Below are positions 1,382-48,706 of a stretch of DNA of 64,000 nt, piece by piece. Position numbers and translations under genes: made by a program. The notes below the pieces were generated by a model. It saw only the letters and a program-made list of their open reading frames with translations. It made no database searches and was not told the origin of the DNA. Source of the stretch: Candidatus Obscuribacterales bacterium (lineage in GTDB: Bacteria > Cyanobacteriota > Vampirovibrionia > Obscuribacterales > Obscuribacteraceae); contig JAIETZ010000002.1 in the NCBI GenBank assembly GCA_019744775.1, positions 1-64,000 of the forward strand. The letters run 5' to 3'. Position 1 is the first letter of the stretch. Each line of letters opens with the position of its first letter.

Positions 1382-1384
1382 GAT

Positions 1385-3189: not shown

Positions 3190-3229
3190 AAAGTGTTGAG
3201 AATTACAAATGCGATAAGATTAGGCACTA

Positions 3230-4282: not shown

Positions 4283-7200
4283 CTATTGACCTGTTGCCGA
4301 GTAAGCTCCATGGCGAGCAGTTACTTGCGTCAGCACAGCGGCCATCTTGACCAGCTTCTCAGCCATTGCATGATCATCTGCGTCAGCTGCCTTCAAGAGT
4401 TCGCCGAGGATGGTGTTGTTTTGCATTAGTGAAACCAGTGAGAACTCAGTGTGCATGAGACTCATATCCTTATTCAAGTCATAACGCTGGATCTTGCGGC
4501 GTCCAAGTGGATCAGCCTTAAGCGCGACATTGATCGACTCATCCGGAGCACCGATGATGAATTCTTCGCCGGAGCTCAATGTCATCAGCTTGCTGCCGGC
4601 ATAAAGCTTGACTGAGTGCGCCGAGTTATCGTACAAGCAACGAACTTTTACGATGTTGTTTTCATTGCTTACAAGCGCGATTGTTCCAGGTGCAACTGAT
4701 ACAAGCGAATCACCTGCACGAACAAGAGTTGCACGGCTGGCAGCAACCAGGGCTTCACCACCCTTGAGGTTAACTACACCTGGTTTTTCCATTACCAACT
4801 TGGTGCCTCTTGTCTCTTTGATCATTGCAGTGTCAGTTGCCAGACTACGCAAGGCTGAACCAATTACAGCACTGGAGCCGGTCGTGTAGGCAATCGGCAC
4901 AATTGATGAAGTTTCAGTTGCCTTCGAAGCCGGAGCCGATGAAATCTTACCGCCAACTGGGGCAGCTGGAGCGCCATTGCCAATCTTAGCCGGCGCATCT
5001 TGCTTAGGTGAACGGCTCATCTTCGGAGGAACAGCGTCACTACCGATTTCTTGCTTCAACTTGTCGATTGTCTTTCTCATTGTGATTGAGAAGCAACCCA
5101 TGTTGCAATTGATGAGCATATCACGACCAATCATGGCTTTTCTTTCGAACTTGCTCTTCTTAACTTGCAAGCCGACAATCTTACCTGCATCGAGTGGTTC
5201 ACGATCAACACCGTCAACCGGTATCAATTCTTCTTCGGAGAGATCGGCATCAGCAACGATCAGTTCTTCACCGGCGGCAGCTTTGAGTTCTTTGGTTTCG
5301 CCATTCACTAGCATCGATATCTTCGTCTCGCCACCAAGCAAGTTGGCAACGCGGACTACACCAGGACGGTCTTGTTCAACGATAGTTGTACCGTCACCTG
5401 GAATTGAGATGTTGCCTTGCGATGTTTCAACAGTCAATCCGGCTTGACCGGCAGAAGCAACCATCTTGCCGGACTTCAATATAACGGTGTGGTTGACCGA
5501 TGGAGCAAAGGTTGTACCACCGGAGCCGATTATAACTGTGCCGTCATCGCCGGCAAACGAGAATGGTTGGCAGTAACCGGAAGCAACAACCCAGCCATTT
5601 TCATCAGTTGTTGATTCGCCGCCCGGGAGAGCCATCACCGTACAAACTGTTTGTTGTACAGTCGAAGTTAGGTTAGCCTTAGTATTGTTGCTTGACGTCG
5701 TATCAGTAACGACCATAGCCGTTTGATTAACGAGTGTCGGTGAGACTTCCGGCTCGATGAATACAACGCCACCGACATCAGCTACAACTGGTGCAGCGCC
5801 ACCTGGTGCAGGCGGGGCTGGCGGTACAACTGGAACAAGCAATGGACCAAATACACCAACGAATACATTGTTCAAAATCATCGGACCAGGTGGGTCAATG
5901 GCAATTACACCGCCGTTGGTCTGGAAGGTGCTTATTCCATTTACTGTAATGCTGCCCTTAACGCCGGAATCAAATACCATTGCGCCGCCACCGGTAAAGT
6001 CAAATATTGTTCCTGGCGCAAAGTTGACGGTACCAATTACCGTCGGTGTGTTAGTACCGGCAACACGCGATAGTTGCAAGTTGTTCAAGTAAGCATCAAA
6101 GCCACCAGCCGGTGCCGGACCTGACCAGATTGCAATGCCACCACCCTGGAACACATTTACATCTTGATTATCAATTACAACTGTGCCGCCGCCGCTGACA
6201 TATCTGGCGACTGAACCAACTATAGCCCCAGATGGCATATTAAGTACACCATCGGTGGCGTTCAATATTACATTGGCGCCTTGAGCAAAGAGTTCGGTAT
6301 TGGCGCCAAGAGTCACGTCCTGCGCACTGTTGATATTTATGTCTTGACCGACGCTCACCAGGTAAATAGTATTTGCGGCATCGAATGTGATATTGGTACC
6401 GGCATTTACCGAAGTTACATTGATAGAGCCGAAATTCATCTCATTTGTTTGATATGCGTTTATATCGGTGCTTATGAGGTCAAAACCTGCATTAACCGAT
6501 CCAGCTTGCATATTGGTTGTTCCAGCAGCGCCTAGAGAAACGCCTGTTTGACCAGTCACGGTGATGTCCGTTGCAGCGGTGACTGTTCCGGAATTCAGCT
6601 GAACATTACCACCGGATGCAATTAGATTTACAGCGCCTTGTGAAGCTTGCATCGTCGCTGCACCCAAAGTAGTCACAACATTCCCTGTTCCAGTTGCTGT
6701 CAGGTTGACATTGCCTGCCGATAAGTTATCGACGGCGGTTAACGTCGTAGCTCCTGTTGAAGCCAAGTCAAATGTGCTGGTAGCACCCGCGGTTGAAGCC
6801 CCAAGGTTTACATTGTTGGTACCGCTGGCGGTACTGATGTACACATTACCACCGGTATTGGCGGTCAAAGTATCTCCGACAGTCATTGCTACTCTTGAGC
6901 TGGTACCCGATCCAATATCACCTGTGCCGGACGTGAGATTTGCATCAGTTGCTGTTATTAATGCCGTGCCTGTCGTACTAATTGCACCGGCGCCATTAGC
7001 TGTCAGGTTGACGGTACCTCCAGTCAATCCGACTGTCCCATTTATATTGATACCGCCACCGGCAGCTGTAGCCAGATCAAAGGTATTGGCTATTCCGGAA
7101 GAAGAATCACCGAGATCAACACCGCCTGTTGTACCTACAAATACGTTGCCGACAGCCACTGCGGTTAATAACGTCGTATCGGCGCTGATACGTGAAGTGG

Positions 7201-10200: not shown

Positions 10201-13200
10201 CGGCTTGAGCTGTTTGACCCGTAAAGATTTCGCTATTGAAATTGGCACCTAGACCACTTATGGCTAGAACATTGCCGCCTAAGCGACCTGCACGTGTGCT
10301 TATCGTTACACCGCTATTTGCACCATTGACACTCAGCACAGCCGTCGGTGCAATCAACAATGCCGAACCGGCGGTAGTAGTACTGGTGGCAGTATCACCA
10401 CCAAGTTCAATATAGGTTCCGACAGTCAGGCTTCCTTGAGAAGCCAAAAGTGTTAGATCACCGCCGTTGCCGGCTACACCAGCTTGGGCAACTACGTTTG
10501 TTCCTACATTAATAGCGTATCTCGATGCCAGACTGATGCTGGAAGCATTGTTGGATACTTGCTGTCCGGACAGACTGTTGACGGAGATTCCGCTGAGTAC
10601 TGCAGCAATTGGTGCATTAAAATGTCCATCACCACCTGTATTTATGGTTAAGGAATTGCTTGGCAGGCTAATGCTGGCAAAGCCACCTGGAACAAGAGAA
10701 TTGCTCACGGCTGTCGGTGTAATGGTCAATGTGGTATTACCGGAGAGCGTTGTCGTCGTTGCAACATTTACGTTCGGGAAGATACCAATATTGGATGCCG
10801 GATGTGTTTCAGTTGTGTATGTTGTTGTTCCAACAACAATGTCATCTGCTCCATAGAGAACAATATTGCCCGATGTTGTACCTGCATTAGATACAGCCGG
10901 CATGCCGTTCGCACAACCTGAACAAATTGATATAGCGCCCTCTGCCGACATAAAGACACTGCCACCAGCTGCTCCGGAAGCAGGAGTGAAGCTGTTGTTG
11001 CTTGTGGTAACAGTACTTGTAACCGTAATCGCTCCTGTTGAGGAAATACCAACCGAGCCACCGACATTAGCACTGCCACTTGCTTGTGAATTGATGCTAT
11101 TGATTGTTACCGAACCGGCCGATGGCATTTCACCGACTCTAGCAGAATCATCGATGTTAACGACAGTTACCTTACCCCCCACTGTTCCGGAAGTAACTAT
11201 GTTGTTTATGGAAATAGACATCGGCGAAACGTTGCCGTTATTTCCGGCAGAGACAATATTTACCGAACCACCGACGCCGGATGTTGAAGATGTGTTGATA
11301 TTCAACAAGGCAGCACCATTTCCTGAAACGTAGGTTCCGGCATTGACGACGACATTGCCACCTGCGGATGCGCCGGAGGCATTGAGCCCAATTATGCCCT
11401 GAGTATCAGCAGTCGTACGTCCAATTGTTATTGAGCCGTCACGGTTGCTCAATATAACTTGTGCGCCCCTGGCGCTACTGTAACCAACTGCATTGATATT
11501 ACCTACGGAAAGTGTTCCGCCAGTTGCGGCAAGAACAACATTGCCGGCGGCATTTTGAGTTCCGGTACCGTACGCAGCGATATCATTAGCAATGTTTAGA
11601 CCACCTCCGAATGCCACTGCCACTAAGCCTCCACCGCTTGAAGTACCTGATGAGATATCCAATCCGGCAGTAGTATTAGTGTTGCTAACCGTGCCTGTTA
11701 TAGCTATTGATTCACCGTTCAAAGTGATATTGCCGGCGAAGTTGCCTGTGGAACTTGTATCAACGCTATAAGCGCTAACCGAACCATACGGGTTCACTAT
11801 TGAAACTTGTCCAGCGGCAGCTCCTGTCAAACCAGCAGCCGATACACGATTGACTGAAATGTTTATGCCTGTATCGAAACCGGTAATCGAAATTACGCCG
11901 CCGTGGTTCGGTTGGTTTTGCGTAAAGCCACTGCCGGTAGAAATTACATCTTGAACAGTCAATGCCGACTCATTTACCGACAGAGAAATGTTGCCGCCGC
12001 TAGCGCCACTGGCAACGATTGAACCGTTGGATACAGTGATTGTCGTACCGGAAATCACCACCTCACCGCCATTAGATGCAGTAGATGAAACATCAATGGC
12101 TGAGCCGTTAGTATTGCCTGTTGTGCCCGTTATGCTTATTCCCTCACCATCTAAGAATACGTTACCGCCAACAGCACCATAAGCGTAAGCACTTATGCTG
12201 GACAACGTCATTGATGAGAACGGGCTCGCCAAATCGACCGTGCCGCCAACGGCAATTCCTGTACTGTTGGCGATGATATTGCCGATTGTTATTGCGGTTG
12301 CTCCTGTACCCCAAGCAAGACCAACCAAGGTGCCACCTGTAGTGTTGGTGCCGCCACCGGCCATATTTATGCCGGCAGTGTTGACTATATTTCCCAGCAA
12401 CGTGACATTGCCGCTGGCTGTGCTGGCAGCTTGCGTAGAGTTGGTTGTTATAGTTCCAGCAACGGACAATGTACCTCCCGATACTAGAAGTACATCGGAA
12501 GCATTGCCGGTAGCTGCTGAATTTGAAACATTGCCTGAAATGGTCATGTTACCGGCTGATACTAGACTTATCAGATTGTCACCGCCGCCGGCGACGTTAT
12601 TGGCAGAGACAGTGCCACCAACTAATAATGGAGCCAAGAATGACGCGGAAGGCATATCTACAGTCAGGTTACCAATTCCAAATGAAGTGAAGGTGGAAAG
12701 CGATCCAGCCGGCACCACAAATGTCGTACTTGTCGTAGTGTCGGTAATTGTTGGTGCTGAGGTTGTCGAAACTGTGTACACGTAATTATTGCTGGAATGC
12801 GCATTTACGTATGCTTCTGTCAACAAACTCGAGGTACCGCTGTTGATATTAGCAAACTGATAAACGCCTGAGCCAGGCACGCCGGTAATGTTACCGGCAC
12901 TGACGATAATAGCCGTACCAACTGAACCACCGGCCCCGCCATTTACGTTAGGTGAGAAGGTTAGACTGCTGCTAGCACCACGAGATACGAAGATGTTGCC
13001 TCCACTTGCACCGGCACCGGAGGCCGATACATTGGCTGATACAGGAACTGTGCCTGCGGCAATTAGAGAAACATTGCCGCCTGCTGTAACGCCTGATGCA
13101 TTGGTCGTGGTGCCGTTAATGTTGGCGTTGGTGCCATAAGCATTGAACAGAATACTTCCACCGGCACCCTGAGAAGAAGAGGCATTAGCGGTTGTATAGG

Positions 13201-34200: not shown

Positions 34201-37200
34201 TGGCGTTTGAGTTATTAACACTAGAGTTGACGGTCACTGCACCAAGTCCAACCAAGCCGACACCAGAAGTACCGCTGCCGACGACAGAATTAACTACGAC
34301 ATTGCCACCGACCAATAAAGGGGCAACGAATGTCTTATTAGGCATTACGACCGTTAGGTTGCCAGAGCCGATATCAAATGAACCAAAGCCACCCAGAGAA
34401 CCTGGCTGCAATGTGTACGTGTTAGAAGAAGTTGTATCTGTAATTGTCGGAGCGGCACCTGTCGAAACTGTATAAGTGTAGTTGTCACCCGATACAGCAC
34501 CTGGGAAATTACCAACAACACTGGCGAAGCGATTTTCGTTGGTTACTGCACTGCCGCTAATTGTGCCGGCGCTTACAGCAATTGCTCGTCCATTTGAAGT
34601 GCCGGTAATGGACAATGTATAAGATAAAGCGTTGGCAGAATTGCCCTGCGATAAGAATATGTTGCCGCCTGTGGAGCTACCGCCAGATGCGTTGGCTTGC
34701 AAATTCAAAGTGCCCATAATGCGACCAGTGGAAATCAAGGAAATATTTCCACCCACGGTCGAGCCGGTTGCAGTAATTGTATTTGCGGAGATGTTTTGAG
34801 CATTCGTGCCGGCCACGTTCATCACAACATTTCCACCGGCAGCGCTAGTTGAAGCTACGGTCATATTGCTTGAAATTGTGATGCCAGTCTTGGCTAAAGC
34901 AATAATTTGTCCGCCGTTGAGACTCGCACCGGTGGCAGACAAACTTTGACTGCCTGTATTGCTGGTTACGTTAATAAGTCCTGTTTTCGATACAAGCAAG
35001 ATATTACCGCCAACACCGGCAGTACCTGAACCATTTGCTTGAGCCCAAGCAAGTGATAGATCGCCTTGCGAAACAACTGCAATGCTGCCACCGGAGCCAT
35101 TGCTGCCATTAGTTTGAATAGAACCGTTAGAACCACCGAACGGAAGAGTAATCTGCCCGCCCGAATTAATCATAACGCTGCCGCCATTCAAACCATTTGC
35201 TGACAACAACCAGTTGGTAGTCAGATTACTACCGGCCGAAATTAAAATTCCGCCACCATTGCCATTCGTGGAATTAGCAGACAATGTTAACGCATTGGTT
35301 GTGCCGCTGCTTGAAGGACCGAGCGAAGAATTTGTAACTATATTGATTGAGCCTGCGTTACCGGAAGTTGAACCGACATTGATAGTGGCGCTGGTGGCAA
35401 CTATCAATCCGGATCCTGACGCCGTAGCAGCCGGAGACGATGCAATAGTGACATTGACATTACCACCGCCGCCATTTGTGCCTTGAGCATTGAGAGTGCT
35501 GGAATTTGCCAACGTGATGTTGCCTGAGCCTGTCACTGCAAGATTGATATTACCGCCGACACCGGTAGCAGAAACATCCGAGTTGCCGATTGTCATATCC
35601 GTAGCTGTGCTTACCGTGATGTTTCCACCGCGTATTGTCGCGCTGGCATCCAGCAACTGTCCTCGCGAATTCGCACCACCGCTCTGAACAAGTGAACCGG
35701 TAGTAGAAGTGACGCTTATGTTGCCGCCGAAGTTACCGCCGCGAGCTTCTATCCAGTTGATTGGGTTAGTGCCCGGTGCCGGCATAGAAGCTACAGTTAA
35801 AGAAACATCGCCACCTCTTCCACTTGTGCCGTTGGCAGAAATATAGGTAACATCAGTAGAGCTGAAGTTTGTTACGTTATTGATATTGTTCGTAAACGAG
35901 CCATAAGGTGCAGATATTGTAATATTGCCACCATTAAAACCGGCAGCATTGTAGCGCCAGTTGTTTCTTACTTGAGTTGCTCCATTATAGGTAAGACCGA
36001 TATTTCCAGATGTGTTATTGGTGGAACTGGTAATAAGCTGCAACCATGACCAGGAATTAAATGAACACGAAAAACAACCCAAGCTACCATCGCCGACGTT
36101 AATAGTGATGTTCCCACCGACCCCGTAAGTGGATGAAGTATTGAACGACAATTCAGTAGTAGAATTGACGTTGTTGCCGGACACCAAAGTAAGAATACCT
36201 GTAATACCATTACCCGTAATGTCTAAGGGTAGAGAACCCATATTAACGGTAAGATTGCCACCATTGCCATTAACAGCGAGTGCATTAATGTATCGTTTTG
36301 GATCCGCGGTTGTTCCAGCGCCACCACCGGTAGACTGAGTCGTCATGGCTGTGTTAGTGGTAAAACCAATGGCACCATTTACCGAAGTAATGGTTATATT
36401 GCCGGCATTCCCGTTAGAAGATGTATAAAGACCTTTGTTCATAACGATATCAGCACCGGCAAGTAAATTAATCGTGCCTGACTGACTTGTACCGCCGGAA
36501 TATACGTTCCAGTTGCCGCCATTAAATAGATAAAGACTGCCGTACGGAGCATCCAACCGGATATTTCCGGCTATTGTACCGCCAGTACTTTGAACGACAT
36601 TGCTATTCGAACAACCAGCACACAAGGAGAGGTTACCCGAACCGGCTATTGCCGTGATATTGGCTGATGTGCCCAATGTATTGGTCGTATCGGCAACCCA
36701 ATAGGACGAAGCAACGGTCGTTATATTGCCACCGGCATTAATATTGATATTGCCTGGCGTCAAAGCACTAGTGTCAAGGAAAATATCTGAGGCAAAATTG
36801 CTACCTGTATTGATGTAAATATTTCCAGCCGTACCACCGATTGAACCAGTCTTGATTTGCCATTGGCTTGCTGTGCTACCTAAGGTACGTCCCTGAGTAC
36901 CAGAGGCAACGTACAGTCGAACTGTTCCACCGATTGCTGATGTTGAAGATGTGTTGAAGGCATATTCAATATTGGTTTGCGGAGAAGCACCACCTGTGAT
37001 TATGGCACCTGCCAAATTTGATTCAGCAACCGACTGTCCAAAGAACATATTGATATTGCCGCCATTGCCTGATCCGCTTGTGGCGTCAATATATCTTCCT
37101 TGAGTTCCTGTTCCTCTGATATAAACGTTGCCGGTATTGACCATGAAATTGGCATTACCAGCTGTTCCTGCAGAGCTTGTAGTAAACCACTTGCCGAGAT

Positions 37201-40200
37201 CAGCATTGCCCTTAGTGACGACCGTCACATCACCTGACTTGGAAGCACCAACTGTATTAAAAGTGGAGGTGTAACCACCACCACCATTCATCAGGAGAGT
37301 ACCGTTTGGTGTGAACACTGAGGCATTGCCCGCATAAAGCCCACCGGAAGTTGTGCTAGTATCCATCAATGGAGGCTGAGTACCGCCAAAATTAGTATGA
37401 AAGCGAACATTACCGGTGAGTGAATAGACACTGAGGCTACCTGAGGTAACCGATCCGTTGCTGGAAATTTGTTGAGCAGAATTGGCGCTATTATCAATAT
37501 TTCCTTTGCTCACCAAATAAATAGATGAAGCATTTGTTGTGTTAGTGCTGGTTGCTAACGAGAATGCAGTAGTACTCAAAGAAATAACCGGAACGACAAT
37601 ATATGAATCACCGCCGGTGTTCATGCGCAAACCACCGTTTGTAATTGGGAATGCATCGGAGGTAAAACTATTGAAGCCCTTCGGATTGTAATTCGTCAAA
37701 GTAGTAGGCGTGACCGTTATTGTGTAGGCAGAGCTTTGGCTTATGGTTGTTGAAGATGGAGTATTAGTCGTGAAAGCCCCAGCCATTCCAGCAGCCGTGA
37801 CCACATTTGCCGGAACTCCGGCTACCGGCGTCGGCGTGATGGATGATGAATTACCACCCGACACAACAATGACCGAACCCGAGGCTGAACCATTGCCAGC
37901 ATTGTAAGCAGTAATTGTCGAAGCATAATTTAGTGATACCCCCGATGATAAGAAAACCGAGCCGGAGCGAGCCGGCGAAGATGTAGCTGCTCCAAATGTA
38001 TTAGTAGTGTCGATGGCACCAGTTACAGCAAGTGCTCCTAGGGTTGCAACACCGATGGAGCCACCTATGCCATTAACAGCGGATGCTTGAGAAGTGACAG
38101 AGCCAATTGAGGAACTGCCGGTATCCAATGAAACGATTTCAACTATTCCACCCGAAGTACCTGATGTGTTTACATTGCCAATTTGAAGCGAAACTCCGCT
38201 GCCGTCATTGCCGACTGCACCCAATACAACTTGTCCGCCCTTGCCGGCAGTTGATGATGCGTTAACCGCAAACGTACCAAGCAGTGCTCCATTGGCGTTG
38301 CTTGCGTTTCCTGCAGTAACTAGAATAAGACCGGCATCACCAGTTGACTGCGTGACCAATCCTGATAGTCCACGCGAGTTTGCCGAGCTGCCTATAGTTA
38401 TGTTGGTGCCACCAGTAATAAATATGTTTCCACCGGCTGCTCCGCTAGTGCCGCCGGAATCCACACCAGCCAAGCTTAGTGAGCCTGTTCCGGAACCGCT
38501 GTTGTTGCTAATGATTACAGACCCGCCGACGTTACCTGTTCCGCTACCGATTGCTTCAACACGTCCGACGGTGAGCAAGCCGGAGCCCGTCGAGTTGATT
38601 AACACACCACCTGCGCTATTCGCTGCAGCTGAGGTAATTACCTTGCCGATAGTAATGTTGGATGCGCCAGGCGACGTTGTGGTGATGACAGCAGAGCCGG
38701 ATACTCCGGTACCGGCATTGTACGTTGATATATCACCCAGGGTGAAGTTGGTTGCCAGGTTGAAATTTACTCTATTTGTAGAGTTGCTGGTTGAGCCATC
38801 AAGCAGGATGGAGCTGCCGGATAAGAAGGTAACGGTTGGGGTTAGAAGAATCGACGATAAATTGCCGCCGGTTTGTTGTCTTTCCAATGGCATTACTATA
38901 CGTATAGTCAATGTCGTGGCATTACCTGATGTTTGATCAATCCCTCTTAGCGCATTATTGACAAACATCAAATTACCCGGTGTACCGGATCCTGTATCGG
39001 AGGACCAGGTGCTCACGTTGCTGACGCTTGATGTAGAACGTGTAACTAGTGAACCAACCGTAAAACTGCTATTACCACTGTCGAGCATGATATTGCCGCC
39101 GCTAGCATTGTTGAGACCGGCTGCAATAATATTGCCTGCAACCAGAATGCCGGCAGAGGTGCTCAACGGCAATACACTGGCCAATGTCGAATCCGCACCA
39201 AGGAAAACATCACCAGCACGTGCGCCTACACCGTAACCGGATGTATTGATATTACCTACGGTCAATGTACCGGTGCCGGAATACGCGCCAACCGCACCAC
39301 CACTTGTACCGACTCCTGCAATTACCAACGAATCGGTAAATATGTTACCGGCAGTCAATACAGGTGTCGCTGCAGTGCCTGCTACAAATGGAGCAAGCAG
39401 AGTGACATTACCCGAGGCATCAGCGCCTGTGCCTCTAGCATAAATATCGCCTTGGACAACCAACGTGCCTGTCGTCGTACCGATTACTACATTGCCGCCA
39501 AACGAATCAACAAGGTTGGTAATTGCACTCGCCTTTATGGAAGCGACTCCAGTGCTTGTACCACCAGTAACCACTTTAGTCGTAGCAGAGCCGCCTACCA
39601 CATAGATGCTACCGGCGAACGCATGTTGCGGCGATCCAGGTTGTGCACTTATTACTGACCCACTACCCGTAGCAATACTTGTCTGCGCGAAGAGACGGCT
39701 TGTATCTGAACCACGTGTGACTAAGACGATAGAAGCTGCATTTCCGGAAGAGCCAACTTGACCCGTGACGTTGCCGCCGATAGACATGTCAGGCATAACA
39801 ATTGGAGCAAGTAGTCTGCTATCACCATTGGTGTCTATTGCGAGATTACCGGTGGTGAAAATGGACTGAATTCCGGAAGCTTTTTGGAAACCGCCCGGAA
39901 TCAAATTCCAAGTTGTGCTGCCATTGGTGAATGTAGGAATTGCTTGCGGCTTGATAGTGAATGTGTAATTAGCCGCTTCCGAACCAGCAGGGAAACCAGT
40001 GAATGTAGTTGTTGTTCCAGCGAATACACCAAGACCACCGAAAGTCTTGACTGTTTCCGGAGTGGCTGTTGTGTAAGTGGTTGTTCCCAAGCGGATGTCC
40101 TTGCTTGCTACAAGAACTACAGATGAATCATTTCCAACGAGAAGCGGGCTTGCATTAGTCGCACTACCAATGGCAATTGAGGTGCCGGTCGCTTGACCGC

Positions 40201-41842
40201 TGGATACGAAAATGCCACCACTTCGGTAAGCGCCATTGCCAGTTGTCTTCATTACTTCGCCACTGGAAATACTAGTGCCTATCTGTATCGTTTCCGCTCC
40301 TGAAATGGCAATGCTGCCTGCTCGTCCATTGGGATCAGTAGAGCTGGTATCAATAGTGCCAGTCGTGATTGTGCCTGTCGGACCAGTGCCGGTGATAATC
40401 ACATCGCCTGAAATAGTGCCTGTTGTCTTGATGTTTCCCACTGTAATGCCGGCAGAACCTGCGACGCCACCTGTATTGTTGGCGGAGATAATTACCTGTC
40501 CGCCTTTGCCGTTAAGTCCACTTGTTTGAATTGTGTTGTTAACCGTTGTACTGAGACCAGACAACAGCAACAAATCACCGCCATTGCCGTTGGAAAGCAA
40601 GGGGCTCGTATTAATTGAACCGTTGACGGTAATTGAACCAGCCGGAGCAGATATTGCGAGAATATTGCCTTGCGTGCTGATGCTGCCGACAATTAACGCT
40701 TGACCGGTGAAGTAAATGACTGGGTCGCCGGTGACATGCAAGTTGTTCAAATTGAAAGTGCCTTCTGCCACATTGAAAGCTGCGCTTCCGCCTGTTGCAT
40801 TTACTGCGCCTTCCATACGTTTTACATCGACAGTAATTGCGCCCTTAGGACTGTCAATCATTATTTCGTTGGCACCGTACGTGCCACCCAGTAATTTCAA
40901 GACACCAGTTGGACCGGAACCACTGACGTAATTCGGATCGGTAATATGCGCGAAGGACAGTTGATCGCGAGCAAGAATGCTGCCGAGTGCGTTGTTGATA
41001 TTCAAAGTACTTCCAACCGCATTACGTATGGACAAACTACCTTGCATCGCTTGCAAGATACCAGAGTTGTTGACGTTAGCTATGTTGGCATTGAGGTTGC
41101 CCATCATTGCAGCAATGGTGCCTTGGTTGGCCAACGTTGCTGCTTGCAAATTCATATTGGTCATGCCTTGCAAAACGCCGGTGTTGATAATTGAATTGCC
41201 GGCCGTTAAATTCAACGCGCCAGTGCTGGAAATCAAACCGGCGTTGACAATATTGTTGACGGCGTTGAGAGTCAAACTCTGCAATGTGGAATTGATGATG
41301 CCGGTTGTGTTGTTGTAGATGTTTGTAGCATTGACTGATGCCGCGGTGATAGCGGCATTGCTGGAAAAGAGATTGAAGGTACCGGAATTGACCAAATTAC
41401 CGGTCACATTCAAGCTTTGCAAAATCGCTGCGTTTTGCGATGCGCGAACGCCTTCAGGAATGACAAGATTTCCGAGCACGCCATTAGTCGCATAATTCTG
41501 AATACGAATGCCGCCGCCGATGGCTGCGCCGACATCATTCAATTGCAGGTACTGATTTCCGGTACGCAAAACTTGCTGCAGGGCAACATTCTGAGCTGGT
41601 GTCAGCATTTGTCCGGCAGACACAGTCATTACCTGACCGCCTGCCAAAATGTTGGTGGGTGCAATATTTGAAGGTGCCGCCACTGTTTGGGCTACGGATG
41701 ACAAATCCAAGTCGACCGCGGTGGCTGGGGTCGGGTCGGGAGCAGTTTGAGCCAAAACACCCAGTGGCGCGATTAATTGGATGCTGAGCACTAGGCTCAT
41801 CAACCATTTAATGTTTACTGCGCGGATACCGGGACTCTTCAA
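4283..41842 (-). CDS. Giant FHA-like beta-solenoid surface protein with C-terminal FecR-like domains (12,519 aa)
   Basis: This single uninterrupted frame of 12,519 codons starts at TTG 41842, with AAGGA 6 nt upstream. Residues 1-31 form a signal peptide ending VLA before QTAP. Residues about 60-330 resemble a filamentous-haemagglutinin/TPS N-terminal domain (QYLQLND, IRIQNYA, the NIYNNTTGIINS region, NAGLISSTGALNLTAG). About 330-11,900 are Gly/Ser/Thr/Asn beta-helix rungs of the type INTSSxxGxGGxI, arranged as megamodules of about 2,350-2,450 residues. A Pro-rich hinge near 12,000 precedes two FecR-like segments (about 12,100-12,220 and 12,340-12,440) and a helical tail. Such proteins are usually exported adhesins or biofilm factors. 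No TpsB gene, autotransporter barrel or sortase motif is visible, so the export route is unknown. Confidence 0.93.
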   Translation of the reverse strand: MKSPGIRAVNIKWLMSLVLSIQLIAPLGVLAQTAPDPTPATAVDLDLSSVAQTVAAPSNIAPTNILAGGQVMTVSAGQMLTPAQNVALQQVLRTGNQYLQLNDVGAAIGGGIRIQNYATNGVLGNLVIPEGVRASQNAAILQSLNVTGNLVNSGTFNLFSSNAAITAASVNATNIYNNTTGIINSTLQSLTLNAVNNIVNAGLISSTGALNLTAGNSIINTGVLQGMTNMNLQAATLANQGTIAAMMGNLNANIANVNNSGILQAMQGSLSIRNAVGSTLNINNALGSILARDQLSFAHITDPNYVSGSGPTGVLKLLGGTYGANEIMIDSPKGAITVDVKRMEGAVNATGGSAAFNVAEGTFNLNNLHVTGDPVIYFTGQALIVGSISTQGNILAISAPAGSITVNGSINTSPLLSNGNGGDLLLLSGLSTTVNNTIQTSGLNGKGGQVIISANNTGGVAGSAGITVGNIKTTGTISGDVIITGTGPTGTITTGTIDTSSTDPNGRAGSIAISGAETIQIGTSISSGEVMKTTGNGAYRSGGIFVSSGQATGTSIAIGSATNASPLLVGNDSSVVLVASKDIRLGTTTYTTATPETVKTFGGLGVFAGTTTTFTGFPAGSEAANYTFTIKPQAIPTFTNGSTTWNLIPGGFQKASGIQSIFTTGNLAIDTNGDSRLLAPIVMPDMSIGGNVTGQVGSSGNAASIVLVTRGSDTSRLFAQTSIATGSGSVISAQPGSPQHAFAGSIYVVGGSATTKVVTGGTSTGVASIKASAITNLVDSFGGNVVIGTTTGTLVVQGDIYARGTGADASGNVTLLAPFVAGTAATPVLTAGNIFTDSLVIAGVGTSGGAVGAYSGTGTLTVGNINTSGYGVGARAGDVFLGADSTLASVLPLSTSAGILVAGNIIAAGLNNASGGNIMLDSGNSSFTVGSLVTRSTSSVSNVSTWSSDTGSGTPGNLMFVNNALRGIDQTSGNATTLTIRIVMPLERQQTGGNLSSILLTPTVTFLSGSSILLDGSTSNSTNRVNFNLATNFTLGDISTYNAGTGVSGSAVITTTSPGASNITIGKVITSAAANSAGGVLINSTGSGLLTVGRVEAIGSGTGNVGGSVIISNNSGSGTGSLSLAGVDSGGTSGAAGGNIFITGGTNITIGSSANSRGLSGLVTQSTGDAGLILVTAGNASNANGALLGTFAVNASSTAGKGGQVVLGAVGNDGSGVSLQIGNVNTSGTSGGIVEIVSLDTGSSSIGSVTSQASAVNGIGGSIGVATLGALAVTGAIDTTNTFGAATSSPARSGSVFLSSGVSLNYASTITAYNAGNGSASGSVIVVSGGNSSSITPTPVAGVPANVVTAAGMAGAFTTNTPSSTTISQSSAYTITVTPTTLTNYNPKGFNSFTSDAFPITNGGLRMNTGGDSYIVVPVISLSTTAFSLATSTNTTNASSIYLVSKGNIDNSANSAQQISSNGSVTSGSLSVYSLTGNVRFHTNFGGTQPPLMDTSTTSGGLYAGNASVFTPNGTLLMNGGGGYTSTFNTVGASKSGDVTVVTKGNADLGKWFTTSSAGTAGNANFMVNTGNVYIRGTGTQGRYIDATSGSGNGGNINMFFGQSVAESNLAGAIITGGASPQTNIEYAFNTSSTSAIGGTVRLYVASGTQGRTLGSTASQWQIKTGSIGGTAGNIYINTGSNFASDIFLDTSALTPGNININAGGNITTVASSYWVADTTNTLGTSANITAIAGSGNLSLCAGCSNSNVVQSTGGTIAGNIRLDAPYGSLYLFNGGNWNVYSGGTSQSGTINLLAGADIVMNKGLYTSSNGNAGNITITSVNGAIGFTTNTAMTTQSTGGGAGTTADPKRYINALAVNGNGGNLTVNMGSLPLDITGNGITGILTLVSGNNVNSTTELSFNTSSTYGVGGNITINVGDGSLGCFSCSFNSWSWLQLITSSTNNTSGNIGLTYNGATQVRNNWRYNAAGFNGGNITISAPYGSFTNNINNVTNFSSTDVTYISANGTSGRGGDVSLTVASMPAPGTNPINWIEARGGNFGGNISVTSTTGSLVQSGGANSRGQLLDASATIRGGNITVSTATDMTIGNSDVSATGVGGNINLAVTGSGNITLANSSTLNAQGTNGGGGNVNVTIASSPAATASGSGLIVATSATINVGSTSGNAGSINIVTNSSLGPSSSGTTNALTLSANSTNGNGGGILISAGSNLTTNWLLSANGLNGGSVMINSGGQITLPFGGSNGSIQTNGSNGSGGSIAVVSQGDLSLAWAQANGSGTAGVGGNILLVSKTGLINVTSNTGSQSLSATGASLNGGQIIALAKTGITISSNMTVASTSAAGGNVVMNVAGTNAQNISANTITATGSTVGGNISLISTGRIMGTLNLQANASGGSSTGGNIFLSQGNSANALSYTLSITGTSNGRAIAVSAGTISGSAVTNENRFASVVGNFPGAVSGDNYTYTVSTGAAPTITDTTSSNTYTLQPGSLGGFGSFDIGSGNLTVVMPNKTFVAPLLVGGNVVVNSVVGSGTSGVGLVGLGAVTVNSSVNNSNATSAGAAVMLVGGGALSVTNGINTMGAYTSGSGNSGNVFLFGSSVSVTGFNGSVNNAASTIDTSTLTGLGGLVFVGSTSSITIGNWSGSTYTSMGEIDTYTSGSGRLAGSVSLLGLGNIQTASIKAGGLSSGNGGQISVASSPVRLSGSSVVNNTNTVGSLVNRSTTTASAGAVGAGLNGYNNDTGTGFANGILTAGSFKFLSNSLIMDDSTKASSYTGAIRVNVVSGTGTIAGIYTNNASGTGGHTGAVTVIGASAGGLTINAIGNTSTSGNTGLVALSNSLGALTVGTGINTSVTTAGTTAGAINADALGSVSFNGHLNASSVSTAASGNVLLWSRSGDVSATSINVSGASSASGSVTLYGQNVIISGQVGGNSINASSTTGGGGAVTIYPIGNGPFRVGYNSGSPQSGTFGKIVTSGTASTTTNVLTIFTPNGSSVVEIANGSQIDMTSLSLAPTLSITAGKVQLDAGTINVNPNGSSDGNSAAITILGRGTMANSVNLLGSLNASTGAGAASTINVSTTFSNVVLGSATVASTSSGTGGNINITSATGVTLNGLNGNGTILDVSSSTGNAGAINVNAAGNILVTTTGGGVIAANGVNASGTTNGYIRFNTTAGTINTFDGVSARSSFSATGNGNDKIGGTIILTSTGNITAGALTVNGLNEAHGGAITVTPSAGNIDISALNLSGYSNVVGSGNLNTVSNGGTATLTASAGSITIGTITANAVGGASTVGAKGAIVTMTSSGNTTINGAVTIRGLNGANAGTFTPTASVGNVAFNALVDMSADTSSIRGFGGTLTAAATAGNVNTQAINVDGIGTGGYAGFISLTAAGTITSGGSLTARGMQATGSGYANGGRVALVSTGASGGITFGPSASINVSSGGGSSGHVVMAANGTGGINLGGDIIASGVGNNQSAGAVLIGATGGALTIQSIDARGLSGARGGWVTLAALNNLSAGSATSVGGISTSGNDAAGPVTISAGGAILTNAGGTLNINTSSVSGRGGSVNIGSAGDNGTVSIQVGTINTTGIAGGAVEIVSIDAAKKSVSVGSITTQATASNTMGGSVGIATTGALTVSGAINTTNTFVGTTTSPARSGSVFLSSGTSINYTSTITAYNASNGSASGQVILISGGNSSSITPAPTANIPANVVTAAGMKGAFTGVGSGSPTTISSSTITISPTAAPTNYNPNGYNAPTNTNITLTFDTNADSFLIAPILVFSTVGGNNKLQLQNSGNNKGMHSSTTNDSYTIAASGDIQINSGINMSGASGGGSISLFSITGSLNGNFFDGNNKLDARATTAGVGGNITTLAPLGSYLQRDAGGTVTLGTGGSVQGGQILAVTYSRLAFASAVDSSMGASGVYSQSAGDVNLITTNSNLWFTAAGTIGTASAANQRHYVSAISTTGNGGNISLIMGQTSPGNNDPWNNAGSNYSGVITTNQSANTTDENSFNASSTSGNGGDIYEIVISGPSGYSGGGGNPPTIYQLLTTSTSGTGGNVSVSIGGQLNFPLLNTRTTGTVGGDINIYSINSIGWRGALVTNATVGKAGDITMVSATGGVGLTNNCCSTPNPYAEANGGSFGGNVTFLAPNGSIFFDTLTFNSNNDNISSTGTIQGGNINLLAGGGDVTVSKGLNTSSTLRNAGDVTVRITKGNLIFTGTGEGLGTVGSPNRFINAMGGAGSGGDILINIAQSVTETDANARAGIFFTQQNAISSTREQSFNTSSTSGQAGNITITIDKGQWGKFGSGVFSDFQLISNSTSDNAGNITINVNGTISLPMMNALANGANGGNISIASTSSFTSPGFLQANASAVRAGSITANVTAFNTGYLDARGGTFGGNVNLNASAGTIVVSGAISTQSSSTHTGNSRGVLIDTSATSKGGSVNLTSSGNMSFNTVNTISTLIAEIDTSSNVSGGNVNLAITGAGNLDFNTYTVSGASTQRFINTQGGSSNGGNVTIALANGAINSAVSAYTALSEASINTSSVSGNAGSISVTSAAGAAASGNGYIQFIANSTNNNAGNISVSTAGAISSNWAFSANGANGGNISIASSGGLINLISAGTSGGQGAITANGSNGTAGSISINAQGNLSLAYVHANGSGTQGFGGNIFLTSRTGTLSVNATAPPNSKVLSATGTLAGGQMYITSSGSINLQTRVDVSSSAGQGGTFYLNTFGGGSLTINGTGTPVISASGVTGGGNIALITTGSFSIFNGSDISVAASGSGANGGNIFVSSTSSIPFTNANLLLSGGAGGATGYAVLLSSSSNSATTSVPGNIYSFQNVTVNLLTAATINASPTANYQIVFNTGAGATSPFFENVAAPGTRLAPGMALSAGVTMNNLTFVTPTKSFLAPLAVSGNVTINGQLIGNGTSSVGIASTGNITVANTINNSNATASGANVTLLGLGALQVGQLTPSVINSGINTAGATSSGTGNAGNITLIGSSVLVNGSAGSLINTAASLDMSTSTGNGGSLFVSSASTVTIGNWSGSTLVGQGQIDTYTSGSGRRAGNVSIIAAGTIQTSSIFAGGLNNASGGQLSIATTGNATVGSLVVRSTTNSSVNGTAGQGGFVSYNNDTGTGSAGGIITGGQFSFLAGAPGPVNPVILADASVASGFTSGINISLAPSSTPPGQIVTANATGSSGPVAIFANNTDGSGGLPLGLVLTSSSTGNSGSIVAANSSGSITLGNNLVTSVSSASATAGAVILDAAVNINGGSFKIDASAPVNPGSVVLSARSGTAQVGSITAASTALSGGGVGGSVLIYANSFNVSGETSLGSGISIDVSSNSNTGGSISLFPVSADNGYTVVLGYGSTPQPNGTKGALKASGTSGGSISLRTTNTTSLVEIADGSSLNVNATTGTGGSITIFGGGVQLDAGNLGASGVNGNGGTISITANPSNLTSSIVSLGASNISASSSAGQGGTITLTASQSINTANLSVDSALGGGSITLTTDQSGSTVVVQNASANATVSGNGGTITLNAGPSASGNLTINGFVSATSVSGTGGTVSLNAGTNVTIAGSGVGGNAINVSSSTGTGGTVQVVAPTLIQMTALGGANIAANGANGGQITFTSSLGTISTYDGVSARGGLSATGSGIFNRGGTITLSSRLNTTIGTVNVNGLSQASGGSMSLTSTIGSIDASNLSASGYSNVSGGGLLSTTSNGGSITVSAVAGAITIGSVTANSVGNSTGPGALGGTLSLTSLSGVQITGAINMRGLNGGNAGVATITTTGATGDVNLTGGANLSTDSTTSFGLGGLLNVTAGRDIIVSGTVQADAYGSENFAGVLQFTAANNFSATGDIYARGLQGTPTANGYAGGGRVALKATAGTISFSAGSDIDVSSAGNSSGGVMMSAGSSGTAINSSGDIFASGSGTNEYGGSVLIKAAAGSVQLGSIDARGLNGAFSGSVTVGAAGSIRAGSASGSIQGISIAGDAGSGSLVLTAGQGIAATIGGSLNLDASSTLGRGGYVNIGAGGNNGTQSISVGSINTSGTSGGDVQIVSLDTSGFATVATSILTQATGSTALAGSVGIAALGAVNVGTIDTRNMSATSSSPARSGSVFISSAKTTGTTISYTSINAYNSLNGSGSGTVILATSASSPSAISPTPTGSANPYAPANVTTAAGQAAAFVGLTSTPTTLNNATVTITVSPTSMSGYNPAGFNSITNGTINFNTGGDSRMIAPILVLGTVSQPNLTKTNSTNADSMTMVARSSILLSANVLTGGTASGGSQSYTSLTSNYTVNGQILQLANGGLYGGNISYVAPLGEINYVNSGSAVSSISTSGTVESGNFVAVAGANVRVSGIDASSALNGGNATLVSTLGNIIFHNAGLNGLDITTASTTGKAGQINLIVGQSVMEGSIATVTSPAAAGIYQMQGTGFVSASTTSGTAGNINFSVITGNNVSHGLGCCGIAGGRTNYYATSSSTSGGTITTAVGGLDQNLRLTETSGANGGNVNAFAANGYAASNGTFTNAGEYIKTNALADGHSGDISITATTGDIYFGPSTTTSFIEANGGSYGGMVKFLAAGGAISLQGSNNAANATNDNINTTGSIQGGNITLSAASNITLSTGINTSSSLRNAGNVDININNGSLRFSNASGEGKGTVAIPYRYINAMGVAGSGGDISIDIYKSITDGNGWAGIVTATTSFPSSTFESSFNASSTSGQAGDISINIQSGQWGYFGGDTGSQYVVQMISNSTNDNGGNISVNLGGTASLRRAYFIANGLNGGSITINSTAGFTTTGYLSTTASAVRAGDISVNATSFSSAYLDAHGGVFGGNIDVTASSGGISINGAPGSVNPTGSPRNTLVDTTGTSRSGNVNLLALNDISFNSNPAAILLSSEIDTSSAVSAGNVNLSITGTGNLNFNAYGSSPGGNQRYINAMGTSGNGGNVNIFINQTSGSNPGIYTTSTRSGTSEVSINTSSISGNAGNININIVSGNVTATSQNFHDMLDLIANSTNNNAGNINVAVAGGMNTNWSFYANGANGGNINLSSTAGGMNLELNGILSNNQGIIQANGTAGSGGNISIALQGSLLGQYIQANGTGASSYGGNILMSSSAGSLSLNSSSGGLSIAATGALGGGQVIAMAKGTGSVGISLSNGISVASTAGVGGNVLLNTFGTVLQGIGNVAINASGVTAGGNVALISSGTISSAVNASASGAGGIGGNIFASAGSTSASSLSGSTTSGSGAAGYQVIMGAGSFSATAGTNIGIFTNVTSVLTPANINTLIDPAHGDTVTITVTPGALPTINVIDPIAVTNNTYNLPAGSLGAFGGLTVATLTFVTPSKGFVAPLLVGGNVTATTVNGNVGGSASAALPIFASGNIGITNTVSTTPVAGDASSVYLGALGTLSLSNGLKTVSSTGNSGNATLFGSAVSVLGSAGTANALASIDLSNASGNGNPGSLLAVSTSTLTIGNWTGNTLNNFGEVDTYATGSTHRAGSAALLASGLIRSSSLYAGGLNNANGGRISVSTTGNAVVGSLVVRSTTNSNVNGTAGQGGFASYNNDTGSGSAGGIITGGNFSFLSGAPGPASPVVLADASNSGFTSGINLNLSTAATPPAQIVTVNNTGSSGAAAIFANNTDVNGGLPLGLVLTSSATGNSGAIIAANSAGFISLGNNLVTSVTSASATAGTVILDAGTNLNGAGFTIQATAPGTPGNVVLSARDGSVIVDAINSSSTAVSGGAVGGSVTVYGNNINITGQTSGSNGISIDVSSVSNTGGTVSLFPVSPVDDYTFTVGYGGAALNSGTYGQIKASGTSGGTILLRTSNVTANLEIADGAALNVNASSGTGGTITLFAGDIHLASGSLNASGTAGGGTVNMTANPSNLLSSITAQPTSTIAASSSAGVGGTISLTASMTIDVGNLSVQSATGGGTITLFTDQAGSAITARNVVLSTTGTGNAGTFNTNSQTFPGGLVTISSVTGNALSGNGGTANIYSRLAMQVLDGISLTSQTGLGGTLVLNSATTVTMLGSTSQGLAGNTNAAIDVSSAGNTGGTVTITAPQGIFVTTANGGNIYANGQNGGTVTMTTSSNAITMMDGSSNRGGVYVNGTGAYKIGGTISLSANTGMTIGVLNANGLNNAAAGTITATLTNSTMNITDVLASGYSNLSPGTGNLATYAHGGTITLNATNGSIDIDNVRANGVGTSTGNGSRGGVVTMTAAQNITLDNLTAAGLRGANGGVLTLTTTSGSINLTTGASVATDSSSSAGNAGMMVMTSGNTLNISGSMLADAYGTGKYAGVINLTATNNITSSGNIYARGLQATGSGYATGGGISLTSTAGGIALNSGASLNTASAGDSSGGIALFAGGAAGIVVPTNILASGSGDSNYGGSVIIKAGTGSVTVGSIDARGLNGAFSGAVMIGAAGSILAGSSDSVQGISTQGTAGSTAIIMSAGQSIANNAGGLLNLNASSSTGRAGSVYVAAGGNNGTASVALGTINTTGITGGDVEIVSMDTSNMSATVGAISTNATGAQALSGSVGIAVRGALTVGGVIDTTNTSVAASSPARSGSVFLSSATSIGYSSINAWNATNGSASGTVILVSAGNGSSITPNPTANPSPPPNFLPANVTVASGMSAAYTSVPTTATISGAKTVTVTTTALTNYNPNGYASINNSTVTLDTGSDSRMIAPLMSLSTATNTDYAVLHSTSADSITVVARNGISMGNTLIASGTTSGGSVNFMSLGNDITMNGTMWMVANGGATGGNMSLLAPLGQIFYNSYATSSFNVSGTQQAGNIVAAGGTGVTLSGETNASSNQVAGNVTLIASLGNIVNNNPGGTGSAYFINVDSVNAQAGNINLIVGKSVYNSSQQSEGIFQMQGVAAVSASTTSGQGGTIRFAVVTGNNTSTGLGCCGIAGARINLNATGVTGVGGDVTISVGGTDQSWRLTTTSGTSAGFIESYTAGNLIIGSMFATSPLAGNYVANASVDRAGDISITSGTGTITNCYACTTATSCSGCAVIEAKGGLFGGDITMSAAQGNLNWFYNSSLQALNTSATYQAGDVNLSSYGNTIMGSGINTSSQLNGGDVTAGVSNGNFYISIGLTNIGARYITTQGDTGTSGDINILVGKSILDSGLNAGIVSGNQFTSGPCTAPCYEGSYNTSSAYGKAGNINIAVNDGLLGSTHVNLQNVTLQLLATSTSGNGGDITVTSNGNQKYIWNISSSGVSAGDITINAGSGTFTNTNGAIQANASSGLAGDVSITATSVATVSTFGSNGSYIEARGGAFGGDIQLVATTGTISVSGTTNSRNNIIDASGNIHGGNVGLTAFGDISLSSQVDTSSGVTGGDIDINITGLGNLNLNGSGGSGASSTWKFMDARGGAGNGGNVSININQSNLPGSGNGFAGVHSALTGFGTEASINTSSTSGNAGDISINILNGPLGYFGTATPNSDYLQLIANSTNNNAGSIALSVGGNIATNWIYTANGQEGGTIALVSGGSFVSGSNNGAGVFNANGTAGGGGNIILSAANGVSAVSASATGTTSGGTIALLSSQATASLATLTASGTLQGGTILGLAKTGVTYTTANASSSQGAGGSILFNAYGTNANINGTTTNASGVTAGGNVSLIAAGTVPVSANVSASGAGASGGNIFVSRGASSSLTFSPNVNGGAGGSVGTAIIVSAGNITGVPGSGVYQFANINSGTSSLLTEAYVNAHSSNNYVYTVSTTSAPTITDTTTSTTFVVPAGSLSTFTSFGIGNLTVDMPSASFLAPLLVGGTVSANNVAGGGDNLISLVSAGNMTISGNVSNSAATGNASDVLLVSGGTLSVAGTITTNSTQAASTASGNVTLLGNIVNTAGINMAGGGTNTTGGTLVGLAWGTGATAITIGNIIANSTGIAVGGTVDLASPFSSMTLSSISAYAYGAVGGNVFLDGEGISITGTTGNTNGSAIDVSSTASNGGEVVISGTTITVSNGSIVASGASGGNISLSVNESALTVQDVISTGSGFTQNQPNHGGVISITGFDTGINISVNRVSAAGLTGAAAGQVSIVNPYGSVSAYSVDTSSTGNFAGNITLNGESIAITGTVSNTNTTAGLDISSGTSSGGGLVAVAFGGGLNIANDIAAYGTGTQNAAGNVVLAATGGTLSVGNINAVGYSSARGAQVILSNRDGSITIGRTTADTQGIIGLNASGASAGGNVVVNAGTYVSGNGAALLNINTSSTSGVGGSVNIVSAGNNGNVSPMSISINNIVTSGTVGGKVTVVNIDDSARVGEMPSAGSVTINSINSQASGSANVGGSVGISSTGAITVTSTVTTSNNSFTPASGAAGGSVFMSAEGAISICSGCANGMPAVSNAGTTSGNIVLYGADDIVVGTTTYTTETHPASNIGIFPNVNVATTTTLSGNTTLTITPTAVSNSLVPGGFASISLPSNSLTINTGGDGHFNAPIAAVLSGISVNSLSGQQVSNNASSISLASRYAINVGTNVVAQAGVAGNGGDLTLLASQGSLTVGTYIELGGDTATSTTTAGSALLIAPTAVLSVNGANSGVTISTRAGRLGGNVLAISGLGANFNSEIFTGQTAQAGDVIIVAPVGNIAFTTNNGGVCIEASSTSAVAGFVSLNVGLGQGNGLVMAGSIRALSNATTGGTVQIRLQQGNVDTTGALSIDASSGSSNSADFGGNVLISSPGDVNIDNWSINANGPNGGTITISSSGTIQLNADNMQANATDVLTGVGGKIEFVSSSTTNLVVGSATGTNYIDGTISIAGVSGGTVSITNRQGAVVIPNFGTAIDITSGISANGANLTLSGTRLQVDNATGGIINMSGAGTGNGGNISLISSDPLTQMVIGAATGTNFVNATLQAASGMAVGSIGDGGTITVSSAAGLSAVATAFDVSAARHGGTITINTNTSNVLTVDNATPGANTIVGVLTARGGSLGGTGNGGIIVLNNQAGGVAINQNNIDVSVQAANGKGGEVYLTGSLVTVGGGLTVNGAGTGDGGIILITSDASLQTGFPTAGNSSITGNLSANAGTSGLGGTVQIFADGDVTVSTSNISALAGGNGKGGNVEIEGNSLTFVGAGDITVNGAGTGDGGFINLVSSSAIAGLTVGGNLSALPGTGAIGTTAGGVIDIEASSGTISNAFTIQTNDGFGGVAGSGGQITFRTQVAADLNLTNTGSILAVGTGAGPTTITFNSTTGSVNINNSLNLVGDIATSTTGTIDFGNAAAGSVSAFADNMTGRIRVFQGVDAILGANSSLNLFTSSVTNNFTANSTNGGIALNGNVNSSGLTGTVTLGAGTDILGSGIVTGNSLVLTSTGGNIGGGTGARINTVTTTMDVTASAAGAGLGNAFINQTGALTLNGANVDVNKTFDLVASDAITVSNTGTVTAGSVSLNATSNGITLSGGITANAAGGAVTLLSATSISGAGLLTGDSVDLTATAGNIGTSGQRVNTAAGTLSLTANDAGAANGNAFINQTGALGLSSTSVTVDKTLDVIASDTITTSGAGTITADTIKLATTANNIVLNGALNGSSGVSLDANGAVTVNAGATTTGTMTVLAGGDISNGLSGGTLSGANIDLSAGGSIGTGTTSRISADTTLLTAVAVGNVFVGTTGGVDLGDSSSGIANTFDLATAAGGGININGTVGLTGGTVNLTANGAGAISTTGTALITATDANLTSGTGDIGSGTSSRVAMTVGDTLTANTGGNVYISTASGTNNVNLGASTAGATSTFDLASTGATTLTAVDNLSAGNVNLTATGTGNVVTTLGAATMQASQGAVNLIASGGNVQLNSGTVTAATDITVTGQTGVSLGAAGTTNMQAGSVNAGFDLISTDINAYQTNEMNFGSINVTSVNAGTNITFDAANTIYLVSVGQDININSAQDVTLGANTELFAQGANVILNATDGVLNMPSGAIVGSVARYVSGGGTVVIDNQDVNVFQGGGIAIWSGPAPAGGFDAYLNNLQLSRVAGTNTPTVIGTVNFAPGTIFDFTGGGAMVFDSGVKGSITVNGISTFQTNGGVIAIDPPGPMILNNVFVGVFGPLLVPVVPPAPPAPGGAAPVVADVGGVVFIEPEVSPTLVNQTAMVVTDTTSSNNTKANLTSTVQQTVCTVMALPGGESTTDENGWVVASGYCQPFSFAGDDGTVIIGSGGTTFAPSVNHTVILKSGKMVASAGQAGLTVETSQGNISIPGDGTTIVEQDRPGVVRVANLLGGETKISMLVNGETKELKAAAGEELIVADADLSEEELIPVDGVDREPLDAGKIVGLQVKKSKFERKAMIGRDMLINCNMGCFSITMRKTIDKLKQEIGSDAVPPKMSRSPKQDAPAKIGNGAPAAPVGGKISSAPASKATETSSIVPIAYTTGSSAVIGSALRSLATDTAMIKETRGTKLVMEKPGVVNLKGGEALVAASRATLVRAGDSLVSVAPGTIALVSNENNIVKVRCLYDNSAHSVKLYAGSKLMTLSSGEEFIIGAPDESINVALKADPLGRRKIQRYDLNKDMSLMHTEFSLVSLMQNNTILGELLKAADADDHAMAEKLVKMAAVLTQVTARHGAYSATGQ
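10950..16237 (-). repeat. Megamodule 4 of the giant protein, shortened (about 5.3 kb)
   Basis: Fourth copy: marker A near 16237 and marker B near 12624, but no recognisable marker C. The region between B and a degenerate fifth A-like block (GGSVFMSAEGAIS near 10950) is about 1.9 kb shorter than in copies 2 and 3. The protein then changes to shorter, simpler beta-helix rungs up to the Pro-rich hinge. Confidence 0.65.
16237..23580 (-). repeat. Megamodule 3 of the giant protein (about 7.34 kb)
   Basis: Third copy: marker A near 23580, marker B near 19866, marker C near 19222. By eye it is closest to copy 2; both share GLGCCGIAGG, SIDARGLNGAFSG and a LADAS..SGFTSGIN block at equivalent places. 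A2-to-A3 and A3-to-A4 spacings are almost equal (7350 and 7343 bp). Confidence 0.75.
23580..30930 (-). repeat. Megamodule 2 of the giant protein (about 7.35 kb)
   Basis: Second copy in the same order: marker A near 30930, marker B near 27168, marker C (YNNDTGTGSAGG) near 26505. Between A and B come the same subsegments, including ARTPF-free linker rungs, an EANGGSFGGN block with a Cys-Cys pair, and INTSS rungs. It is diverged from copy 1 throughout, so these are old duplications and not an assembly artefact of identical repeats. Confidence 0.75.
30930..37975 (-). repeat. Megamodule 1 of the giant protein (about 7.05 kb)
   Basis: Bounded by successive copies of marker A, SSPARSGSVFLSSG, followed by a YNxxNGSASG stretch and a GGDSxxxxPI block. 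Marker A lies near residue 1289 here and near 3637 at the next copy. Inside are marker B (a VAPLLVGGNV-type block near 34315) and marker C (YNNDTGTG near 33650). Boundaries are approximate because the copies were aligned by eye at protein level. Confidence 0.75.
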
Positions 41843-44320: not shown

Positions 44321-44337
44321 CAACCCACCTATAACTG

Positions 44338-48672: not shown

Positions 48673-48706
48673 TGCTTTCACTCTTAATATGGTTTCCAAC
48701 TGCCGA

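Follow-up and report, generated by a model that had tools for sequence, protein, structure and literature searches.

A predicted giant exoprotein with a FecR-like C-terminal module and its paralogues in an Obscuribacterales genome

Introduction

Can a reading frame of more than twelve thousand codons from an uncultured bacterium be a genuine gene, and what would its product do? The question is raised by the start of contig 2 in a 4.1-Mb, 13-contig assembly of an uncultured non-photosynthetic cyanobacterial relative of the order Obscuribacterales, of which we analysed the first 64,000 nucleotides (hereafter the window). An initial annotation made from the letters alone described an FHA-like fibre with a signal peptide and a FecR-like C-terminus, possibly a periplasmic sensing or anchoring end. 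Giant proteins of Omnitrophota and Chlorobium fall in a comparable size class and have a presumed surface role. Giant repetitive bacterial surface proteins are already known, and in Apilactobacillus kunkeei several related ones, Giant1-5, together take up ~6% of the genome (PMC12863079). Huge proteins have also been surveyed more widely, with as many as 31, mostly non-homologous, in one bacterial genome; neither Melainabacteria nor FecR is mentioned there (PMC11573180).

Here, we describe the gene, its repeats and its conserved ends, place it in a family of giants, and weigh what the encoded protein is likely to be.

Gene structure and composition

The uninterrupted 12,519-codon gene is confirmed, and it lies on the minus strand (Table 1), which had been left unstated. 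The frame cannot be put down to chance, because the alternative reading frames examined at these positions carry 488 to 708 stops each, with the plus strand full of stops; at 3.9% stops per codon, the chance of 12,520 stop-free codons is ~10^-216. The proposed signal peptide and ribosome-binding site are likewise borne out, with a Sec-type signal following the TTG start and AAGGA ~7 bases 5' of it. The exact start codon is not certain, since homology to the orthologue in a genome of the same genus (G002) starts at residue 10.

Table 1. Giant gene, encoded domains and upstream neighbour, in positions of the window
Feature	Position	Strand	Details
Giant gene	4283..41842	minus	12,519 codons; TTG start at 41842, stop at 4283, no internal stop
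Sec-type signal peptide	41747..41842	minus	residues ~1-32, ...VLAQ; hydrophobic peak at residues 11-34
Family N-terminal domain	40082..41752	minus	cap region with helix, then long beta-helix; residues 31-587 modelled
Super-repeat unit 1	31523..38632	minus	residues ~1071-3440
Super-repeat unit 2	24281..31522	minus	residues ~3441-5854; 52.8% to second G023 unit
Super-repeat unit 3	16934..24280	minus	residues ~5855-8303; 54.7% to third G023 unit
Super-repeat unit 4, truncated	12353..16933	minus	residues ~8304-9830
Gly/Ser/Thr/Ala/Asn-rich body part, mostly non-duplicated	6083..12352	minus	residues ~9831-11920
First FecR-like beta-domain with short helix	5087..5578	minus	residues ~12089-12252; AlphaFold2
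Second FecR-like beta-domain	4400..4876	minus	residues ~12323-12481; AlphaFold2 and alignment of own paralogues
Helical tail ending HG-x-Y	4286..4447	minus	family-wide with small variations (two alignments; helices in AlphaFold2 model)
Neighbour, 749-aa Ser/Arg-rich protein	42074..44323	minus	sub-threshold LysM match; directly upstream of giant, co-directional

The protein consists of 16% Gly, 13% Ser, 12% Thr, 11% Ala and 10% Asn, contains just 24 cysteines, and has a more charged composition confined to about its last 500 residues. No searched piece of it gave an above-cut-off match in Pfam or NCBIfam, residues 1-3000 hit no family in the whole of Pfam (hmmscan, E up to 0.1), and NCBIfam and PDB sequence searches with the N-terminus, body and C-terminus returned nothing useful. 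GGA1 and an adenoviral fibre, which a C-terminal profile brought up from the PDB at E about 1, were judged chance matches.

Super-repeats of the body

Self-comparison revealed that the body is built from super-repeats of ~2,440 residues, three full and one truncated, that are ~30-76% identical to each other depending on the stretch. Beyond them, residues ~9831-11920 contain only a short repeat (10081-10336), after which comes a Pro-rich linker, PPAPPAP. The super-repeats are old and diverged, because hardly any tandem repetition is left at the DNA level, where just one 21-base repeat was found inside the gene. A rung period was sought in the body by autocorrelation of single residue classes, and no global lag exceeded 0.04. 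Cysteines stand in close pairs (CxxC or CC) at residues 1741/1744, 4108/4109, 6442/6443 and 8881/8882, roughly the same place in each unit.

A genome of a different genus (G023) has a counterpart, a frame that aligns co-linearly with residues 26-7919 (8,187 alignment columns, 49% identity) up to the point where its contig ends. A 4,787-codon frame on another G023 contig carries the C-terminal part, with unit-like sequence at its start, and is probably the remainder of the same gene. Units 2 and 3 are closer to their G023 counterparts (Table 1) than to any unit of their own gene (46-47%), and this unit-for-unit match across genera indicates that the duplications are older than the genus split and that their order has been kept since. 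In a further genome (G013), frames of 15,075 and 15,561 codons each comprise three comparable units and a shorter fourth.

Selection and gene order

Against the same-genus orthologue, the N-terminal 629 codons are 83% identical with a dN/dS of 0.05 and the C-terminal 576 codons 77% identical with a dN/dS of 0.09 (NG86, dS saturated in both), a comparison of the ends only, as both G002 contigs stop inside the giant and its middle is unassembled. By these codon comparisons, both ends are under strong purifying selection, which bears out the earlier view that the gene is intact and maintained. Third codon positions are the most variable in every body unit compared, between units as well as between genomes. 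In a tree of the C-terminus, the window giant groups with the G002 and G023 copies (99/97).

Gene order is shared at both ends. The LysM-like neighbour, a possible envelope partner, also lies upstream of the G002 orthologue, where its C-terminal part is 84% identical, and the FecCD permease and ABC ATPase genes downstream of the giant flank the G002 copy too. Elsewhere in the window, on the minus strand, a 338-aa frame (47710-48726) contains 33-45-base tandem repeats at 48321-48564, and a 1,437-aa protein (58776-63089) contains 60-base tandem repeats at 60703-60872.

N- and C-terminal domains

AlphaFold2 modelled the N-terminal 557 residues as a long beta-helix with a capping helix (pLDDT 82, pTM 0.81, from a shallow alignment of nine sequences). 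A Foldseek search of this model against the PDB gave no significant match, all E values being above 1, and VacA, EtpA, HxuA and HMW1 are among the neighbours at E 1-10. These neighbours suggest a beta-helix of the TpsA or autotransporter type. Extrapolating from the model and from the composition, we expect that the body is a solenoid or beta-helix as well.

For the last 450 residues, AlphaFold2 predicted two beta-domains with helices after each (mean pLDDT 77, shallow alignment of 22 sequences); ten-residue blocks of the beta-domains mostly reach 82-97 pLDDT, and a disordered linker at model positions 200-259 joins the two. Searched whole with Foldseek, this model matched the periplasmic domain of PupR (6ovk_R, E 2.6e-4, probability 1.00, 122 columns), the sole PDB match below E 0.001. 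Comparison by hhalign also shows homology between the two domains (96.4%, E 1.2e-9). By sequence, the Pfam FecR match is weak, appearing in 3 of the 22 members with a best E of 0.0042, and FecR homologues sought among plasmids for profile comparison gave no match. The first subdomain of PupR, CJM, is a twisted beta-solenoid-like fold of ~129 residues (PMC7186176), a size that fits the 122-column alignment; the match would then cover CJM and not STN, and we infer that CJM is what Pfam calls FecR. The two FecR-like segments and helical tail read from the letters have therefore survived structure prediction, supported by the AlphaFold model, the PupR match and hhalign, and weakly by sequence.

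Because the 22 sequences were collected by the tail pattern KMAA, conservation of the tail in that alignment is biased; an alignment of 16 paralogues from the same genome is free of this bias. The module also occurs alone. Two secreted proteins with signal peptides, one of 229 aa in the same genome (contig 3 ~366124-366813; L132 1625-2314 minus) and one of 311 aa in a relative (L093 9620-10552), comprise a single FecR-like domain and the helical tail.

Paralogues and distribution

A homology search with the last 599 residues, as the initial annotation had suggested, recovered paralogues in the same genome (23 matches, against 21 with the first 600 residues, the window giant included in the 21). 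Twenty giant frames of 1,728-25,007 codons, 10 of them over 5,000 codons, add up to 377,778 bases or 9.2% of the assembly, a minimum given that two frames run off contig ends. The gene is very large, as first claimed, but no lone oddity: among the 20 paralogous frames it ranks second in size. At the top (contig 2 174643-249666; L041-L044) stands a single open frame of 25,007 codons and 75 kb, twice the length of the window giant, with a signal peptide, the same C-terminal module, and body sequence shared with the window giant in 93 of its own 250 hundred-residue windows. Four others, of 5780, 7414, 3947 and 10865 codons, stand head to tail over 85 kb of contig 6 (20890-105525; L045-L049).

All giants of this genome that are not cut by contig ends have a signal-peptide-like start, the shared N-terminal domain and a recognisable C-terminal module. 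Between these common ends, the bodies differ greatly in sequence and range from 1.7 to 25 thousand codons. Inspection of the genes around the paralogues yielded no conserved neighbour and no consistent candidate for an export partner. Beside three shorter giants lie secreted proteins of 362-422 aa without a Pfam match (contig 5 157070-158338 and 159453-160691; contig 1 228430-229521), which are possible partners.

Beyond this genome, a C-terminal query matched in 34 of 60 sampled relatives, all of the same family or order; samples from other families of the class had no match. When 386 genomes from the phylum were searched with a profile, with few candidates scored per genome, the only match was the genome studied here. 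Scanning 84,980 species genomes with one short peptide pattern, which could miss distant relatives, turned up 22 loci, and the titles of nearly all of them read Candidatus Obscuribacterales or Melainabacteria; the scan of relatives used a five-row alignment, and the 16-paralogue alignment gave no conserved stretch. Two loci titled Chloroflexi (L076 and L085; SBAT01000216.1 and SBAT01000417.1) belong to a bin that is placed in the genus of the window genome, and the title of that bin is probably wrong. The number of giants is likely underestimated, because such genes break in fragmented assemblies, as in G002.

Export and function

We consider it reasonably probable (about 0.6) that the product is a giant beta-helical exoprotein, exported by Sec, that forms an outward filament and whose C-terminal module attaches to the envelope or to some shared component of export or assembly. 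The signal peptide would direct Sec export, and the N-terminal cap would start a beta-helix rod that most likely runs through the four super-repeat units and the non-repeated stretch. After the rod, the Pro-rich linker would lead into the conserved pair of FecR-like beta-domains and the helical tail. Most likely the rod protrudes as a long filament, about 200 nm on a rough calculation (some 11,000 residues, with ~22 residues and 0.48 nm to a rung), binding other cells, particles or matrix. The module most likely attaches the giant either at the envelope or to a partner in export or assembly that all members use, which is the simplest reading of its presence in every family member. Relatives of this bacterium are diderm (PMC4040986). 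Passage through the outer membrane, display at the surface, a role in adhesion and C-terminal anchoring are predictions of this model. Delivery of a toxin is unlikely, because the C-terminus is the conserved part of the protein. We put forward more tentatively, at somewhat worse than even odds, that these proteins form a previously unnamed Obscuribacterales giant exoprotein family, of up to 25,007 codons and with about 20 members in each genome, that has its own N-terminal cap, its own export route, and a new sorting or anchoring module made of the FecR fold and the HGxY tail.

The protein might instead be a periplasmic or S-layer-like structural scaffold rather than an outward filament, which we judge unlikely. 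About 20 paralogues on 9% of the genome could fit an abundant structural role, the upstream neighbour has a weak LysM match, and our search of the genome found no outer-membrane export partner: ShlB (PF03865), the dedicated TpsB, had no match at E up to 1, the one Omp85, with POTRA_2, is probably BamA, and two secretins have no demonstrated tie to the giants. However, 12.5-25 thousand residues go far beyond what the periplasm needs, the composition resembles that of large exoproteins, and the great differences between paralogue bodies better fit variable binding than a lattice.

Somewhat less likely still is a two-partner secretion exoprotein, a true TpsA relative of FHA and HMW with an unusual C-terminus. 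The Gly/Ser/Thr/Ala/Asn-rich composition, Sec signal and predicted N-terminal beta-helix would suit such a protein, and TpsA secretion domains are among the weak Foldseek neighbours of the N-terminus, yet all of these lie above E 1, hmmscan of the whole protein in pieces found neither a TPS domain (PF05860) nor haemagglutinin repeats, and the genome encodes no ShlB beside its single Omp85. A separate PF05860 search of the genome, also empty, carries little weight, as its controls were silent too. The FHA-like label holds for composition and predicted beta-helix fold and fails for the TPS domain and a dedicated TpsB partner.

The PupR match, the sole significant structural one, and the FecR-like fold raise the prospect of a surface sensor whose rod binds a ligand while the C-terminus signals across the envelope, as in cell-surface signalling. 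We regard this as very unlikely, because the giant lacks what makes FecR a regulator. No membrane helix is conserved ahead of the FecR-like part (a hydrophobic stretch close to residue 11,990 has no counterpart in the paralogues), helices rather than an STN fold follow it, and inspection by eye of the genes next to the giants turned up no sigma factor. The genome, moreover, also encodes a FecR protein of 599 aa that is secreted, which suggests a use of the fold outside anti-sigma factors in this bacterium. Of the periplasmic sensing or anchoring end proposed initially, sensing is thus disfavoured for want of an anti-sigma domain, membrane helix and STN, and anchoring is possible and is the role we prefer.

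Giants do break assemblies, with contig ends falling inside two paralogues of this genome and in both G002 contigs, but an assembly artefact or decaying gene is hardly conceivable here, given a co-linear copy in an independent genome whose units match one to one, synteny with G002 at both ends and the low dN/dS.

Comparison with known systems

The window giant shows the general features of giant surface proteins, being over 5,000 residues long, repetitive and intact, with a signal peptide and a predicted surface location. It resembles FHA, HMW1 and EtpA in having a Sec signal, an N-terminus predicted to cap a beta-helix, and a repetitive body rich in Gly, Ser, Thr and Asn. Unlike them, it has no TPS-domain match and no TpsB partner, ends in a conserved FecR-like module, and is several times longer. 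We rejected an autotransporter (type Va), the last 450 residues being two beta-domains and helices with no barrel family in Pfam, and a CdiA-like or polymorphic toxin, the C-terminus being conserved in 16 paralogues and 22 aligned sequences with no Pfam toxin family.

With the CJM subdomain of PupR/FecR regulators (PDB 6OVK, PMC7186176), the module shares an all-beta FecR/CJM-like fold in an extracytoplasmic position. PupR itself combines an anti-sigma domain in the cytoplasm with a single membrane helix and an STN subdomain (PMC7186176), whereas in the giant the fold is duplicated, sits at the C-terminus of a secreted protein with helices in the place of STN, and comes with neither an anti-sigma domain nor a membrane helix.

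The A. kunkeei giants are likewise a family under purifying selection, with an N-terminal beta-solenoid (Giant1-4) and a C-terminal domain of their own (PMC12863079). In contrast to those five consecutive genes of a Gram-positive bacterium, which encode 3,000-8,000 residues with an alpha-helical rod and an SH3b-like end (PMC12863079), the Obscuribacterales giants belong to a diderm lineage, have Gly/Ser/Thr-rich bodies, and are encoded by 20 mostly scattered genes of up to 25,007 codons. The surveyed huge proteins (PMC11573180) share the size class and the presumed surface role, whereas here a single family has common ends.

We found nothing relevant on giants or adhesins in Obscuribacterales or Melainabacteria in the literature searched, which leaves aside preprints and most subscription papers. 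Within it, giants with a FecR-like C-terminus, a family of them restricted to one order, and a genome load of 9.2% appear undescribed.

Implications

With one homologous family taking up 9% of a 4.1-Mb genome, both the growth of such proteins and the role of their common ends become testable. So does the question of how a diderm bacterium exports a protein of 12,500-25,000 residues without a recognised dedicated partner. The family also offers a lead into the surface biology of a non-photosynthetic cyanobacterial order that is known almost only from metagenomes.
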